A DNA stretch of 64,000 bases. Origin: Bacteroidota bacterium. GTDB taxonomy: Bacteria > Bacteroidota > Bacteroidia > AKYH767-A > 2013-40CM-41-45. Positions 24,394-28,717 of this stretch are shown piece after piece; position 1 is the first letter of the stretch, and each line of letters starts with the position of its first letter. The notes below the pieces were generated by a model. That model worked only from the letters and a program-made list of their open reading frames with translations. It made no database searches and was not told the DNA's origin. Where the stretch lies: contig QQVM01000016.1 in assembly GCA_003389385.1 (NCBI GenBank), forward strand, positions 124,001 to 188,000. Reading direction: 5' to 3'. The translations under genes and the position numbers were made by a program.

Positions 24394-24513
24394 AAGAGAA
24401 ATTAGCTGCGGCAAAATAATTCAAAGCTCAGAGATGTAAAAGACTGATTTTCCAGCAGAAGATATTTCTTTTTGTTTTTTCGCAAAACGAATAATTCTCT
24501 TAATTTCGCCCCC

Positions 24514-24598
24514 GGAGAGGTGGCAGAGTGGTCGATCGCGGCGGTCTTGAAAACCGTTGACTGTTAAAGGTCCGGGGGTTCGAATCCCTCCCTCTCCG
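24514..24598 (+). tRNA. tRNA-Ser (TGA anticodon)
   Basis: An 85-base class II tRNA. Acceptor GGAGAGG pairs with CCTCTCC (24591-24597), with discriminator G at 24598. The anticodon arm GCGGT-CTTGAAA-ACCGT gives anticodon TGA (codon UCA), followed by a long variable arm and T-loop TTCGAAT. No CCA is encoded. Its last 16 bases are the template of the repeat copies downstream. A -7-like TAATTTCG lies about 6 bases upstream. Confidence 0.95.
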
Positions 24599-24754
24599 CA
24601 AGGATAAAACGCATTGCCCCGCAAGGGGCAATTTTTGTTTCAGGAGGGTGATGAGCTTGCTCATCTAATCGGATGAAATAAAAATTGATCAGGCGCGAAG
24701 TGCCGGCAATGCATTTTGGAATTGCAGGAACCACCTTAATGGATCACCGCGGGT
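24583..24754 (+). repeat. tRNA-Ser-tail repeat, unit A (172 bp)
   Basis: First unit of the array. It starts with the true tRNA 3' end (AATCCCTCCCTCTCCGCA) and continues with AGGATAAAACGC and a terminator hairpin, ATTGCCCC-GCAA-GGGGCAAT plus TTTT (24613-24636). Hairpins GATGAGC-TT-GCTCATC (24650-24665) and GGCGC-GAA-GTGCC (24692-24704) follow. GCAAT/ATTGC arms surround 24706-24725, and the unit ends GGATCACCGCGGGT. There is no open frame of note. Confidence 0.9.
24613..24640 (+). terminator. Terminator of tRNA-Ser, within repeat unit A
   Basis: Perfect 8-bp stem with a GCAA tetraloop and a T-run, 15 bases after the tRNA. The same terminator is repeated in units B and D, and a different one fills the same place in unit C. 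Confidence 0.85.
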
Positions 24755-24926
24755 AATCCCTCCCTCTCCGCAAGGATAAAACGCATTGCCCCGCAAGGGG
24801 CAATTTTAGTTTCAGGAGCGTGATGAGCTTGCTCATCTAAGCGGATGAGATAAAAATTGATCAGGCGCGAAGCGCCGGCAATGCATTTTGGAATTGCAGG
24901 AACCACCTTAATGGATCACCGCAGGT
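24755..24926 (+). repeat. tRNA-Ser-tail repeat, unit B (172 bp)
   Basis: Tandem copy of unit A at exactly 172 bp, nearly identical. It restarts with AATCCCTCCCTCTCCGCA and keeps the terminator hairpin with its GCAA loop. Its third hairpin reads GGCGC-GAA-GCGCC, where unit A has the wobble form GTGCC, so the stem is kept despite the base change. Confidence 0.9.
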
Positions 24927-25091
24927 AATCCCTCCCTCCCCGCAGATGAATCAAATGAAGGCCCGCGCTAGCGGGCTTTTTATTTTTCCGGAAAGATCAC
25001 AAGTTTGCTTGAATGATCTTGAAGGGAAAATAAAAAAGACGAAGTCTTTCATTTGATTTTGACAATAGGAGACACAGGGATCACCGCAGGT
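24927..25091 (+). repeat. tRNA-Ser-tail repeat, divergent unit C (165 bp)
   Basis: Begins with the same tRNA tail (one change, CTCTCC to CTCCCC) and ends with the shared GGATCACCGCAGGT junction, but its middle is a different sequence. The order of structures is the same: terminator GCCCGC-GCTA-GCGGGC with a T-run (24961-24980), an imperfect stem AAGATCA/TGATCTT (24993-25020), and AAGAC-GAA-GTCTT (25036-25048). Confidence 0.8.
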
Positions 25092-25219
25092 AATCCCTCC
25101 CTCTCCGCAAGGATAAAACGCATTGCCCCGCAAGGGGCAATTTTGTTTCAGGAGCGTGATGAGCTTGCTCATCTAAGCGGATGAAATAAAAATTGATCAG
25201 GCGCGAAGCGCCGGCAATG
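25092..25219 (+). repeat. tRNA-Ser-tail repeat, unit D, truncated at its 3' side
   Basis: Matches unit B from the tRNA tail to GGCAATG. It stops there, about 43 bp short of a full unit, where the AT-rich kinase islet begins. Confidence 0.85.
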
Positions 25220-25314
25220 ACCGAATCAAATAAATTGGGTAAATATATACCAGATTAAATATTTTCTTATAATTTTATATTGAGATGTTTAACTATTAAT
25301 TGAAGTAAGAAACA
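25220..25314. other. Left boundary of the AT-rich islet
   Basis: AT-rich sequence between truncated repeat unit D and the kinase ATG. I see no inverted terminal repeats or recombinase gene. A short CCGAATC string at 25221-25227 recurs at 26890-26896 near the right boundary, but 7 bases could be chance. Confidence 0.4.
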
Positions 25315-26391
25315 ATGGTTAATCCTAACACAAATATCTTTCTTTTAGAAAATGCTCTTGACAATTTATTGGAAGGTTTTCAGATAATCAGTCCAGAATG
25401 GAAATATCTCTACGTAAATAAATCCGTTATTAAACAAAGTAAATGTAATTCAAAGGAAGATTTGATAGGCTTTACAATGATGGAAAAATTCCCGGGAATT
25501 GAAAATACGAAATTGTTTAAAGTACTTTCTAGATGCATGTTGAAAGGAAATTCAAAATATTTTGAAAATAAGTTTGATTTTCCAGATGGCACTCAAGGGT
25601 GGTTTGAATTAAGAATTGAACCAATTCCTCAAGGTTTGTTTATCCTATCAATTGATATAACAGAACGGAAGCAGGCGGAAAAAGAAATTGAGATAAAATC
25701 TGCCGATTTATTGAAAGCAAATGCTGAACTAGATCGATTTGTGTATAGTGTTGCACATGATTTGCGTTCTCCTCTAACTTCAATATTAGGACTTTTATCA
25801 TTTATAGAACAAGATGATAATGAATTTGAGAAAATTAAACATTTAAATCTGATAAAAAGTAGAATAGAAAAAATGGATGAGTTTATAAAAAACGTACTTA
25901 GCTATTCAAAAAACAATCGAATAGAAGTAAAAGTCCAGAATATTTCTATAAGAAAAGAAATTGATGATAAATTAAATATATACAAGAATTTATTAGAGAG
26001 TAATATGATTGATATTCAACTAGAAATTGATCAATCAGTTCCATTCTATTGCGATCATACTAGATTTTCAATGATTATTGAAAATTTAATTTCAAATGCG
26101 ATTAAATATCATGACCCTAAAAAATCTAATAGGTATATTAAGATCAAAGGTAATGCTGATATCAATGTTGTAAATTTAATTTTTGAAGATAATGGAATTG
26201 GTATACCATACAAGCATCAAGATAAAATATTCAAGATGTTTTATCGGGTATCAAATCAGATCCCTGGATCTGGACTCGGATTATTCATTGTAAAGGAAAC
26301 TCTAGAAAAATTAGGTGGGAAAATCTGGGTAGATTCAATTCCAAAAATTAAAACATCCTTTAATTGCGAAATAAGAAATTATTTATCATGA
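25315..26391 (+). CDS. PAS-domain sensor histidine kinase
   Basis: Cytoplasmic-looking histidine kinase of 358 residues with no transmembrane segment. A PAS domain covers about 10-120 (LLEGFQIISPEWKYLYVN...). The HisKA domain has the phosphorylated His148 in SVAHDLRSPLTSILG, and the ATPase domain has ISNAIKYHDP (N box), DNGIGIP and GSGLGLFIVKETLEKLGG. The kinase senses a soluble signal and phosphorylates the overlapping response regulator (ATGA overlap, 26388). Its base composition stands out: two 60-base lines I counted hold 15 and 11 G+C, against about half in neighbouring housekeeping genes. Together with the flanking repeats this suggests horizontal acquisition. Confidence 0.9.
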   Translation: MVNPNTNIFLLENALDNLLEGFQIISPEWKYLYVNKSVIKQSKCNSKEDLIGFTMMEKFPGIENTKLFKVLSRCMLKGNSKYFENKFDFPDGTQGWFELRIEPIPQGLFILSIDITERKQAEKEIEIKSADLLKANAELDRFVYSVAHDLRSPLTSILGLLSFIEQDDNEFEKIKHLNLIKSRIEKMDEFIKNVLSYSKNNRIEVKVQNISIRKEIDDKLNIYKNLLESNMIDIQLEIDQSVPFYCDHTRFSMIIENLISNAIKYHDPKKSNRYIKIKGNADINVVNLIFEDNGIGIPYKHQDKIFKMFYRVSNQIPGSGLGLFIVKETLEKLGGKIWVDSIPKIKTSFNCEIRNYLS

Positions 26392-26801
26392 TTAAATTAT
26401 TAACATATGTAATAGAGAGGGTGATGATAGTAGACGATGATCCAACTGACTTATACATACTTAATAGAATATTAAAAAAGAACAATTTTGCAAAAATAAT
26501 TACGCAATTTTCATCTCCAGAAAAGGCTTTACAGCACCTTTTATCTAATCATAAAAAAAACTTTTTTTTTCCACAGATGATTTTTTTAGACATAAATATG
26601 CCTTTGATGAATGGCTTTGAATTTCTTAATGAATTTAATAAAATTCCTGAAAACATAATAAGAAATACTAAAGTAATTATTTTGTCTTCCACATGTGACC
26701 CAAGGGATTTTGATAAAATGAAGGCTTACCCTAATTCTTTAATGTTTTTTGAAAAACCACTTAAATCAGAAGATTTAGATTTAATTTCAACTATTTTATA
26801 A
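26388..26801 (+). CDS. Single-domain response regulator (Rcp1/CheY-like)
   Basis: 137-residue receiver domain without an output domain. The ATG at 26388 overlaps the kinase stop as ATGA, a sign of translational coupling, and is preferred over the longer frame from 26364. Acidic pocket residues lie in MIVDDDPTD, the phosphorylated residue is Asp68 in FLDINMPLMNG, and the conserved Ser/Thr (ILSST) and Lys (FFEKPL) follow. The long loop before Asp68 and the DDDPTD start resemble the Rcp1 class, which pairs with PAS/phytochrome-type kinases. Output is probably through protein contact. It shares the low GC of the kinase gene. Confidence 0.9.
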   Translation: MIKLLTYVIERVMIVDDDPTDLYILNRILKKNNFAKIITQFSSPEKALQHLLSNHKKNFFFPQMIFLDINMPLMNGFEFLNEFNKIPENIIRNTKVIILSSTCDPRDFDKMKAYPNSLMFFEKPLKSEDLDLISTIL

Positions 26802-26825
26802 AAATATTTTTCTTTAAAAGATTAT

Positions 26826-26853
26826 AAAAGCCCTCATTTGAGGGCTTTTCATT
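26826..26853 (+). terminator. Terminator of the kinase/regulator islet
   Basis: AAAAGCCCTC (26826-26835) and GAGGGCTTTT (26840-26849) form a perfect 10-bp stem with an ATTT loop, directly after the response-regulator gene. Confidence 0.85.
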
Positions 26854-26920
26854 TCAGATAAAGATTTCATCAGTACTTAAAAATCGGTGCCGAATCTATG
26901 GACATGTAAAAGTTACTTCT

Positions 26921-27055
26921 GCAAGGGGCAATATTTGTTTCAGGAGCGTGATGAGCTTGCTCATCTAAGCGGATGAGATAAAAATTGATCAGGCGCGAAG
27001 CGCCGACAATGCATTTTGGAATTGCAGGGACCAGCGTAGTATCAATGTCACCGCG
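26921..27055 (+). repeat. tRNA-Ser-tail repeat, unit E, truncated at its 5' side
   Basis: Resumes the repeat at about unit position 39 (GCAAGGGGCAAT, the right arm of the terminator), so it lacks the tRNA tail and left arm. It then runs through both small hairpins to GGAATTGCAGGGACCA and a weakened TCAATGTCACCGCGC end. It marks the right edge of the kinase islet. The rest of the 26,802-27,076 gap is featureless. Confidence 0.85.
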
Positions 27056-27076
27056 CTTTCAAGTTTAAGACTTTCT

Positions 27077-28717
27077 TCAGTCAGCATTCTTCTTTTCGGT
27101 CCAGTCCACTTTAAAATAACCAGGTCTTTCCTGCACGGCTTGCTTTAAAAATTCAGCATCGTAACCGCAGCCTTTTACTTTTGGTCTTGCATCATCGTTT
27201 TCACGACTGTAGCGGTCGTTGTATTTGGCAAAGAGATAATAACCGAGCTCTTTCCAGCGTTGCACTGTTTTTTCTGCTGTGTTAACAGAGTATTCCGTCA
27301 GAAATCTGGAAGCAAGTTCAGGATTTGTCGCGTGCAGTTCCGTTGCAGCTTTTTCAATTGCAGGCTGAACAGCAACCGCATAAGTTTCCAGATCTGATTG
27401 CACCTGCTGAATTTCTTTAATGATTGGCGCGTACATACCGTAAGCGTAGTTGGCCACAAGATTGAATACCCAAAATGCGGAATTCCAGTCGAAGCGGCTG
27501 ATGTTTCCAGTCGACAAAGATTTCGGAACTTCAGTCATCCCCATATACAATGGCATATAACAAGTACTGTAAGTGTCATCTACGCCATACCACAGTAGTC
27601 CGCCTACATTATCCGGGAGCGCGGAGCGTGATTGTGTCACAAATGAAAAACCGGTCTGCTGAGTGGAGATGGGGCGCTCCCAACCGTATTTTGTCACAGT
27701 GTCACCGGGAAGGTGAAAGAACAGTGGCTTCCAGCGATAAGGATTGCCGTGCGGACCCGCAGCAAAGCCCTTGGTCATGTCATACTTCGTTCCCTGAAAA
27801 TGGTCTCTCATCAAAGCGAAAGCGTCCTTCACTCCTATCTTCTTATCAGGCTTGATGAATAAAGGATAAGGCTCTGCTCCTTTGACAGCTCTCCAGTAAT
27901 CGTCTGAAAAATTCTGAGAAGGCGCGGCTCTGGAAAAGATGCTCCATACGCGACCTTCGCAAAGCAGCAGACTTGAAGGTTCAGTGGGATGATAAGCTTC
28001 GTTGAAAAGAAAGTCATCGTCCCTGCCTGTGAAAAAACCTTTGCTGCGTGCGAAAGAAATCACATCTTCAGACCACATCCAGTTTGCCTTGTCTTTAAAA
28101 TTAATTTTACCAATACGCGAGTGATTCGCATGGGCGGTGATGTATCCGTCCGGAACTTTGGCAGCGACCCAAACTGCTCCCTTTTCATTTTCCCCTTTTC
28201 CAATGAGGTCCATGATCCATACTTCATTTTTATCTGCTATGGAAAATGACTCGCCGGAACTAGCATAACCGTATTCGTTTATCAGCGAAGTCATAACCTG
28301 TATCGCTTCCCTGGCGGTTTTTGCCCTTTGGAGTGTGATGTACATCAGGCTTCCGTAGTCTATAATGCCTTTGGATTTTTCAAGCTCTTTTCTACCTCCG
28401 AATGTGGTTTCTCCAATAGCAAGCTGATGTTCATTCATATTTCCTATAACCTTATAGGTATAAGGCACCTGTTTGATTTTACCGAGAAATTTTCCGGTAT
28501 CCCATTCATAGATGTTGAGTGAGTCATTTTCACCGTGCTTCATCGCAGGTTGAAAGTATAGAGGATCCATGAATCCACCGGCATCGGCAAGGTAAGAGAT
28601 CATGGTGGACCCATCGGCGCTGGCGCCTTTGGATACAAGAAGATTAGTACAAGCCACCGAACTTTTTACAAGCATGGAGGCAATAAGGAAACAGAATGTC
28701 AGCCTGACAATTTTCAT
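27077..28717 (-). CDS. C69-family dipeptidase (Ntn hydrolase), secreted
   Basis: 546 residues from the ATG at 28717, which gives a clean signal peptide (MKIVRLTFCFLIASMLVKSSVA). The longer frame to 28912 adds 65 residues without family character. Cleavage before CTNLLVSKGASADGS exposes the N-terminal nucleophile cysteine typical of peptidase family C69. Further family features are the EYGYASSGESFSIAD and EVWIMDLIGKG segments and SVTQSR-like strings (SFVTQSRSALPDNVGG). Homologues cleave dipeptides, and here the enzyme would work in the periplasm or outside the cell. A cargo gene is divergent across a 213-base gap. Confidence 0.88.
   Translation of the reverse strand: MKIVRLTFCFLIASMLVKSSVACTNLLVSKGASADGSTMISYLADAGGFMDPLYFQPAMKHGENDSLNIYEWDTGKFLGKIKQVPYTYKVIGNMNEHQLAIGETTFGGRKELEKSKGIIDYGSLMYITLQRAKTAREAIQVMTSLINEYGYASSGESFSIADKNEVWIMDLIGKGENEKGAVWVAAKVPDGYITAHANHSRIGKINFKDKANWMWSEDVISFARSKGFFTGRDDDFLFNEAYHPTEPSSLLLCEGRVWSIFSRAAPSQNFSDDYWRAVKGAEPYPLFIKPDKKIGVKDAFALMRDHFQGTKYDMTKGFAAGPHGNPYRWKPLFFHLPGDTVTKYGWERPISTQQTGFSFVTQSRSALPDNVGGLLWYGVDDTYSTCYMPLYMGMTEVPKSLSTGNISRFDWNSAFWVFNLVANYAYGMYAPIIKEIQQVQSDLETYAVAVQPAIEKAATELHATNPELASRFLTEYSVNTAEKTVQRWKELGYYLFAKYNDRYSRENDDARPKVKGCGYDAEFLKQAVQERPGYFKVDWTEKKNAD

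Follow-up and report, generated by a model that had tools for sequence, protein, structure and literature searches.

The window, a 64,000-nt stretch of contig QQVM01000016.1 from a Bacteroidota genome, holds an array of short non-coding units anchored at an intact tRNA-Ser(TGA) gene and interrupted near its far end by two signalling genes (Table 1). Unit C is a divergent lineage placed between near-identical units, and thus the array cannot have arisen simply by tandem duplication; compared by eye, its linker resembles units from other genomes. The kinase and response regulator genes (25315-26801) have a GC content of about 27%, against 44-50% nearby. Unit positions 39-129 occur at either end of this cargo, a pattern like that left by recombination of a unit-bearing circle with the array.

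Table 1. The array behind tRNA-Ser(TGA) and the parts of unit C, in window coordinates
Feature	Position	Strand	Basis
Intact tRNA-Ser(TGA), array anchor	24514..24599	+	ARAGORN; Rfam RF00005
Unit A, starting inside the tRNA tail	24583..24754	+	R2 match 24600-24760, E 2e-22
Unit A T-arm mimic	24741..24759	+	Sequence; GGAT..ATCC hairpin in place of the T-loop in the tRNA 3' copy
Unit B	24755..24926	+	97% identity to unit A; R2 E 2.6e-24
Unit B T-arm mimic	24913..24931	+	Sequence
Unit C, other sequence, architecture kept	24927..25091	+	R2 91 bits, E 3.1e-17
tRNA tail copy AATCCCTCCCTCCCCGCA, left of unit C	24927..24944	+	Sequence
Unit C outer stem, 5' arm	24949..24959	+	DNA fold
Unit C intrinsic terminator, GCCCGC-gcta-GCGGGC plus T run	24961..24987	+	DNA fold, sequence
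Unit C terminator stem arms	24961-24966/24971-24976	+	DNA fold; T run after
Unit C long stem	24977..25036	+	T-rich 24977-24989 with A-rich 25024-25036; DNA fold
Unit C inner hairpin, within long stem	24993-25003/25008-25020	+	DNA fold
Unit C small hairpin AAGAC-GAA-GTCTT, C(GNA)G loop	25036..25048	+	Sequence, DNA fold, loop census
Unit C outer stem, 3' arm	25048..25058	+	DNA fold
Unit C T-arm mimic / junction GGGATCACCGCAGGTAATCCC, itself a hairpin	25077..25097	+	DNA fold
Unit D, ending within the outer 3' arm	25092..25219	+	R2 match 25121-25219, E 7.6e-13; 98% to unit B
PAS/HisKA/HATPase histidine kinase, low-GC cargo between D and E	25315..26391	+	Domain scan; GC about 0.27
Response regulator receiver protein, cargo	26364..26801	+	PF00072 (scanned 26385-26801)
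Unit fragment E, far array end	26902..27041	+	R2 E 4.3e-10; 96% to unit B

The original prediction held that unit C keeps the fold of the repeat with a different sequence, and that observation is right and wider than was claimed. All three stems it described are present at 24927-25091, and an 11-bp outer stem that it missed encloses the whole fold. As DNA, positions 24945-25097 fold with a z-score of -7.6, a value that none of 200 shuffles reached; the RNA fold of unit C has a z-score of -6.3. The small hairpin of unit B reads GGCGC-GAA-GCGCC, as stated, against AAGAC-GAA-GTCTT in unit C, and the C-to-T change reported for the same stem of unit A is real (GGCGC-GAA-GTGCC). The possibility that unit C is an unrelated terminator joined by chance is ruled out, as it is recognized as a true family member (E 3.1e-17) by the covariance model R2, which was built from 62 elements of other genomes and had no sequence of this genome in its training.

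The palindromic tRNA-end elements form a widespread and apparently undescribed family of the Bacteroidota. A first model, R1, built from nine units of this genome and four relatives, matched in 25 of 42 genomes of the order. An independent 21-nt pattern covering only the junction, scanned through named genomes, matched at least 116 stretches, nearly all from Bacteroidota by title, with two from Chlorobiota and one from Lacticaseibacillus. Run on 80 of these pattern loci, R1 recognized the complete structure in most, with 111 matches (E up to 1e-3) in 81 sources, locus L279 included. In a sample across the phylum, at least 16 of 198 genomes were positive, a lower bound with 14 candidates scored per genome, and two genus samples yielded 36/40 and 13/40. 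Within the genome of the window, R2 recovered unit C, the other array units, a further array at tRNA-Ser(GGA) and a lone element at tRNA-Cys(GCA); three of the 36 detected tRNA genes carry a non-coding element, and in 43 further loci, roughly half of which surround other tRNA genes, R2 found nothing (best E 0.55). Searches against Rfam at gathering and relaxed thresholds returned only tRNAs and sub-threshold chance matches, the RtT model had no match over 24400-27200 even with E up to 5, and no description of these elements was found in open-licence papers. In Methanopyrus kandleri, a conserved palindrome is described that follows tRNA genes at a distance of about 10 bp (PMC5217627); it differs in being a single short palindrome of one archaeon, and the portion of that paper drawn on here mentions no tail copy or arrays.

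Position at a tRNA gene is characteristic of these elements. Among 60 first units in the order, hand-listed from 106 rows after second units and opposite-strand shadows were dropped, 50 start no more than 40 nt after a tRNA, mostly a few nucleotides from its 3' end (Ser 29, Arg 6, Pro 5, Cys 3, Lys 3, Met 2, His 1, Ala 1). Most elements that have no adjacent tRNA begin at an orphan tRNA tail or a contig edge, and tmRNA also carries an element (L211). The anatomy runs from the intact tRNA through an outer arm, the unit's own terminator, a nested palindrome and the second outer arm to a copy of the last ~20 nt of the tRNA with its T-loop replaced. Each unit ends in a copy of the 3' part of its own tRNA, in which the T-loop is exchanged for a C(GNA)G hairpin, one arm of which equals nt 59-65 of the host tRNA and the other the complementary sequence; the tail copy is lost in many last units. 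None of 31 units with a recognizable tail copy keeps an intact T-loop before the tail. When mimics were searched for blind to the tRNA, with 5-nt arms and a flanking C and A, a hairpin could be called in 41 of 84 loci (22 of 84 in a stricter search with 6-nt arms), and its arms equalled nt 61-63 of the unit's own tRNA in 38 of the 41, against a mean of 16.9 and a maximum of 26 over 5000 shuffles; for tRNAs other than CCC the match was 14/16. An intact tRNA on one side and a loop-disrupted partial copy on the other is an arrangement found both for the non-coding units and for the GIY-YIG units described below.

Variants of this layout occur at several loci. The T-arm mimic alone stands in five copies at 25 bp behind one full element at L212 (1360-1480). 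At L320 (1651-2544), an 890-bp segment with an ORF for a collagen-like lipoprotein lies between tmRNA and a tmRNA tail with its element, and the tmRNA tail is repeated again after the element. At L199, L226, L029 and L074, the second and following units are frequently truncated at the 5' end, so that tail, outer arm and terminator are missing, and their periods are near 100-125 bp. Broken copies of tRNA 5' halves lie upstream of tRNA-Ser at L430 (700-1900) and L031 (1300-1430), mirroring the 3' arrays.

Comparison of units shows that bodies copy between the tRNA genes of one genome while the tRNA copy matches the local tRNA. The genome G310 has ten matches, and eight of its units at eight tRNA genes were compared; the Leu and Arg bodies share 90% identity over 121 nt, and arms and tails follow each tRNA. 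A strong nearest neighbour exists for 59 of 84 compared units, lying in another genome at the same tRNA (24) or a different one (20), or in the same genome at a different tRNA (12) or the same one (3), counts that indicate both inheritance and spread. Gain, loss and tandem amplification, moreover, affect entire units. Four genomes of one genus-level group illustrate this, two having the order tRNA-U1-U2 and two tRNA-U2, with U2 98.6% identical over 139 nt. In a congener (G001), the tRNA-Ser(TGA) locus has a conserved left flank and no element, though with its differing right flank it cannot count as a clean empty site.

The stems of the family covary strongly. In a model-fitted alignment of 62 homologues, 93.4% of the alignment cells pair, and the covariation score of 0.651 against 0.147 ± 0.007 for shuffled and at most 0.141 for slid alignments rules out that covariation stays at background, the outcome that would have spoken against the original prediction. 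The covariation check proposed there, carried out in a simpler form than R-scape, gave double changes at 41 of 45 pairs, and an unfitted alignment of nine units already had them at 19 of 36. Folded freely, 112 chosen elements had a mean z-score of -6.75, with 108 below -3, and the outer stem was recovered in 102.

Strong covariation could be taken as the mark of a structured RNA, that is, an rtT-like trailer at the tRNA 3' end, with a fold that would act once transcription has passed the terminator. The rtT RNA of E. coli tyrT (Rfam RtT) comes from tandem repeats of ~175 bp behind a tRNA gene, each with the tRNA 3' end, and the tandem, tail-containing layout of our arrays is alike. In contrast to rtT, the family here has no Rfam match, spans many isotypes and a whole phylum, and has a conserved palindrome and a broken T-loop. 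The mismatches in the fitted alignment also appear RNA-like at first sight (93 G-T against 28 A-C). In a count that treats both mismatches alike, this asymmetry is gone for the outer stem (31 G-T against 33 A-C, beside 1177 Watson-Crick pairs) and left for the inner stem (42 against 10); the unbiased recount on the 112-element set gave 36 against 25 for the outer and 62 against 20 for the inner stem. A structured RNA should prefer G-U over A-C in all covarying stems, and the outer stem lacks this preference, whereas the inner excess can be explained by the need for the T run as a terminator. As the outer stem has no G-T preference and the larger part of the fold is situated beyond the terminator, DNA is favoured over RNA.

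The loops point the same way, as those of the small hairpin and the mimic are GNA triloops, whereas the true RNA terminator has GNRA or other tetraloops. GNA triloops close 29 of 50 small hairpins in the phylum set (A3) and 44 of 67 in the order set (A2), and 34 of 62 mimics, counted in A2 alone since the A3 mimics are constrained by the search pattern. Central hairpins have CNNG or TNNA loops (47/53 in A3, 70/75 in A2), and terminator loops are mostly tetraloops (31/46 and 38/58), with GNRA in 10/46 and 18/58; the census covers all but the last 26 of the 106 A2 rows. Hairpins of the C(GNA)G and G(CNNG)C types, with GNA and CNNG loops, are very stable in single-stranded DNA. Together with the absence of units at the same tRNA of the congener, these observations make a structured RNA unlikely, and we favour an element that acts as a DNA-level palindrome. 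The original prediction had proposed selection on folding of RNA or of single-stranded DNA, as in structured RNAs or attachment sites; its attachment-site side comes closer, because the junction is a copy of the 3' part of the host tRNA with a broken T-loop, whereas its structured RNA is less likely than a DNA palindrome.

Part of the covariation could arise from correction of palindromes during replication rather than from selection. On a rival reading the units are neutral palindromes: the inverted repeats of terminator regions would stay perfect through template switching at replication, and slippage from one tail copy to another would multiply them. Near-perfect Watson-Crick arms, the symmetry of G-T and A-C mismatches in the outer stem, the frequency of 5'-truncated tandem units and the 25-bp array of the mimic alone all agree with such an origin. 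It leaves unexplained, however, the conserved loop types, the architecture shared across the phylum, the tracking of each tRNA's T-stem and the copying of one body to several tRNA genes, and we consider it quite unlikely.

Islands and phages integrated at tRNA genes target the segment from the T-loop to the 3' end and regenerate the tRNA. A further alternative is that the units are minimal cassettes moved by a tyrosine recombinase or an integron-like integrase, acting on T-arm att sites or on folded single strands. The block of identity from the T-loop to the tRNA end, the line of units behind the tRNA, the palindromic C(GNA)G hairpins and the gene pair between units would suit such cassettes. 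Unlike those islands and phages, the units are ~170 bp long, contain no integrase gene, and have a far copy that lacks the T-loop. Their tRNA and mimic share no T-loop overlap (0/31), so the identity required of att sites is missing, and each isotype has its own matching copy, though a single recombinase would need a common core. Recombinase cassettes are thus also quite unlikely.

MITEs, and REP elements with RAYT transposases, are likewise short, non-coding, palindromic, patchy and copied within genomes, whereas the present family is anchored to tRNA ends, has a host-specific tRNA copy and has no associated transposase that we could find. Mobilization as REP-like single-strand elements by a Y1 or RAYT transposase is highly improbable, despite the loops typical of single-stranded DNA, Y1_Tnp genes in 36 of 42 genomes and one RAYT gene beside an element, since G028, G031 and G041 bear elements and lack Y1_Tnp, that RAYT gene has its own, different REPs, and no element lies near any of 20 Y1 loci. 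The RAYT-like gene with its REP hairpins occupies L091 1673-2227 and adjoins an element behind tRNA-Ser. Reverse transcriptase was also considered as a mover and rejected, with PF00078 present in 13 of 42 genomes and absent from this one.

The reading that we prefer links the units to small GIY-YIG nuclease genes. Among 37 such genes in the order, picked regardless of tRNAs (25 in loci returned by the search and 12 in ten further regions), 16 lie within 400 bp of a tRNA, compared with none of five large ones and a chance expectation of ~1%, estimated from the 36 tRNAs in 3.36 Mb of the genome of the window. A tail copy follows the ORF in 10 of the 14 small GIY-YIG genes with a tRNA upstream. 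A GIY-YIG ORF is present in sister units elsewhere, for instance in the arrays L333, L433 and L406. At L333, the third unit of an array has an 87-aa GIY-YIG protein in place of the palindrome, with a left end of ~45 nt common to its non-coding neighbours, and the nearest solved structures to this protein are the UPF0213 proteins 1zg2 and 1ywl. At L433, a GIY-YIG unit and a non-coding unit lie behind one tRNA-Val, with left end and T-loop hairpin in common. The scanned proteins measure 78-98 aa and have little outside the catalytic domain, unlike SegB, which is a longer protein. Of the 116 junction-pattern loci listed, only 3 have a small GIY-YIG ORF within the flanks covered, and G028 has eight elements, yet its sole GIY-YIG match is UvrC-sized. 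Units A-E contain no GIY-YIG ORF, and thus we call them nuclease-less relatives, not members, of the GIY-YIG tRNA-linked homing elements.

The hairpin of a GIY-YIG unit sits in the T-loop of the tRNA copy at L406, L408, L413 and L433, in the anticodon loop at L409 and L431, and in the D arm at L430, L432, L441, L443 and L448; at L430-L432 and L443 the unit lies 5' of the tRNA, with a broken copy of the tRNA 5' part. The genome of the window itself has GIY-YIG units at tRNA-Val(TAC) and a minimal array of hairpin-broken copies at tRNA-Arg(TCT). The latter (L131 1-142, minus strand) is a 79-bp tandem repeat composed of a short spacer and a copy of the tRNA 3' part, whose anticodon arm is swapped for the hairpin TCCCGTGC-AAA-GCACGGGA. 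The GIY-YIG units at tRNA-Val(TAC) lie at contig ends (L402, L125), and their tRNA-Val copy has its anticodon arm swapped for a hairpin like that of tRNA-Arg(TCT).

A parallel exists in T-even phages, where, in the part of the source used here, SegB, a GIY-YIG homing endonuclease, cuts within phage tRNA genes, 23 of 83 sites having the motif RAWTSGAAC, and causes tRNA-linked segments to be amplified in tandem (PMC13096335). Read on the opposite strand, the motif gives the T-loop GTTCSAWTY, the stretch replaced in the units. SegB and the small GIY-YIG units are alike in linking a GIY-YIG nuclease to tRNA genes; SegB differs in being phage-borne. The cited part of that paper mentions no palindromic non-coding units or hairpin-broken tRNA copies (PMC13096335). 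The units of the window differ further in carrying no nuclease.

The analysis shows the window units to be non-coding members of a family at tRNA and tmRNA 3' ends across the Bacteroidota, and we give an even chance to the proposal that they are nuclease-less relatives of GIY-YIG tRNA-homing elements. From these comparisons we infer that a nuclease drives homing, that the hairpin in the loop confers self-immunity and that the non-coding units are satellites. In such a scheme, the window units would be MITE-like, nuclease-less relatives of small GIY-YIG elements; the nuclease would cut a tRNA gene in a conserved loop (the T-loop for this branch), repair of the break would copy or amplify the unit beside the tRNA, the terminator of the unit would maintain tRNA expression, and the spare tRNA copy would escape recutting through its hairpin. 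It counts against this explanation that the window array has no nuclease gene, that G028 and most junction-pattern loci show no small one, that the scanned proteins are so much smaller than SegB, that many last units have no tail copy, and that not all GIY-YIG units break the T-loop, several breaking the anticodon or D arm. Additionally, copying across isotypes with host-specific tails needs an extra step beyond the proposed mechanism. More tentatively, and with somewhat less than even confidence, we suggest that Bacteroidota genomes host a class of parasites in which minimal GIY-YIG loop cutters always leave an intact tRNA and a hairpin-immune copy, and in which palindromic units are nuclease-less satellites spread across the phylum.

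The model has a use in annotation, as it tells these units from tRNA pseudogenes and terminators. If the proposed explanation is right, strong covariation of a palindrome need not mean RNA, a warning for other studies of conserved folds. The small GIY-YIG genes beside tRNAs would be accounted for, and homing of the SegB type in phages would be linked to chromosomal repeats. A common repeat beside the tRNA genes of Bacteroidota would then be a mobile element with a simple and testable device for self-immunity.
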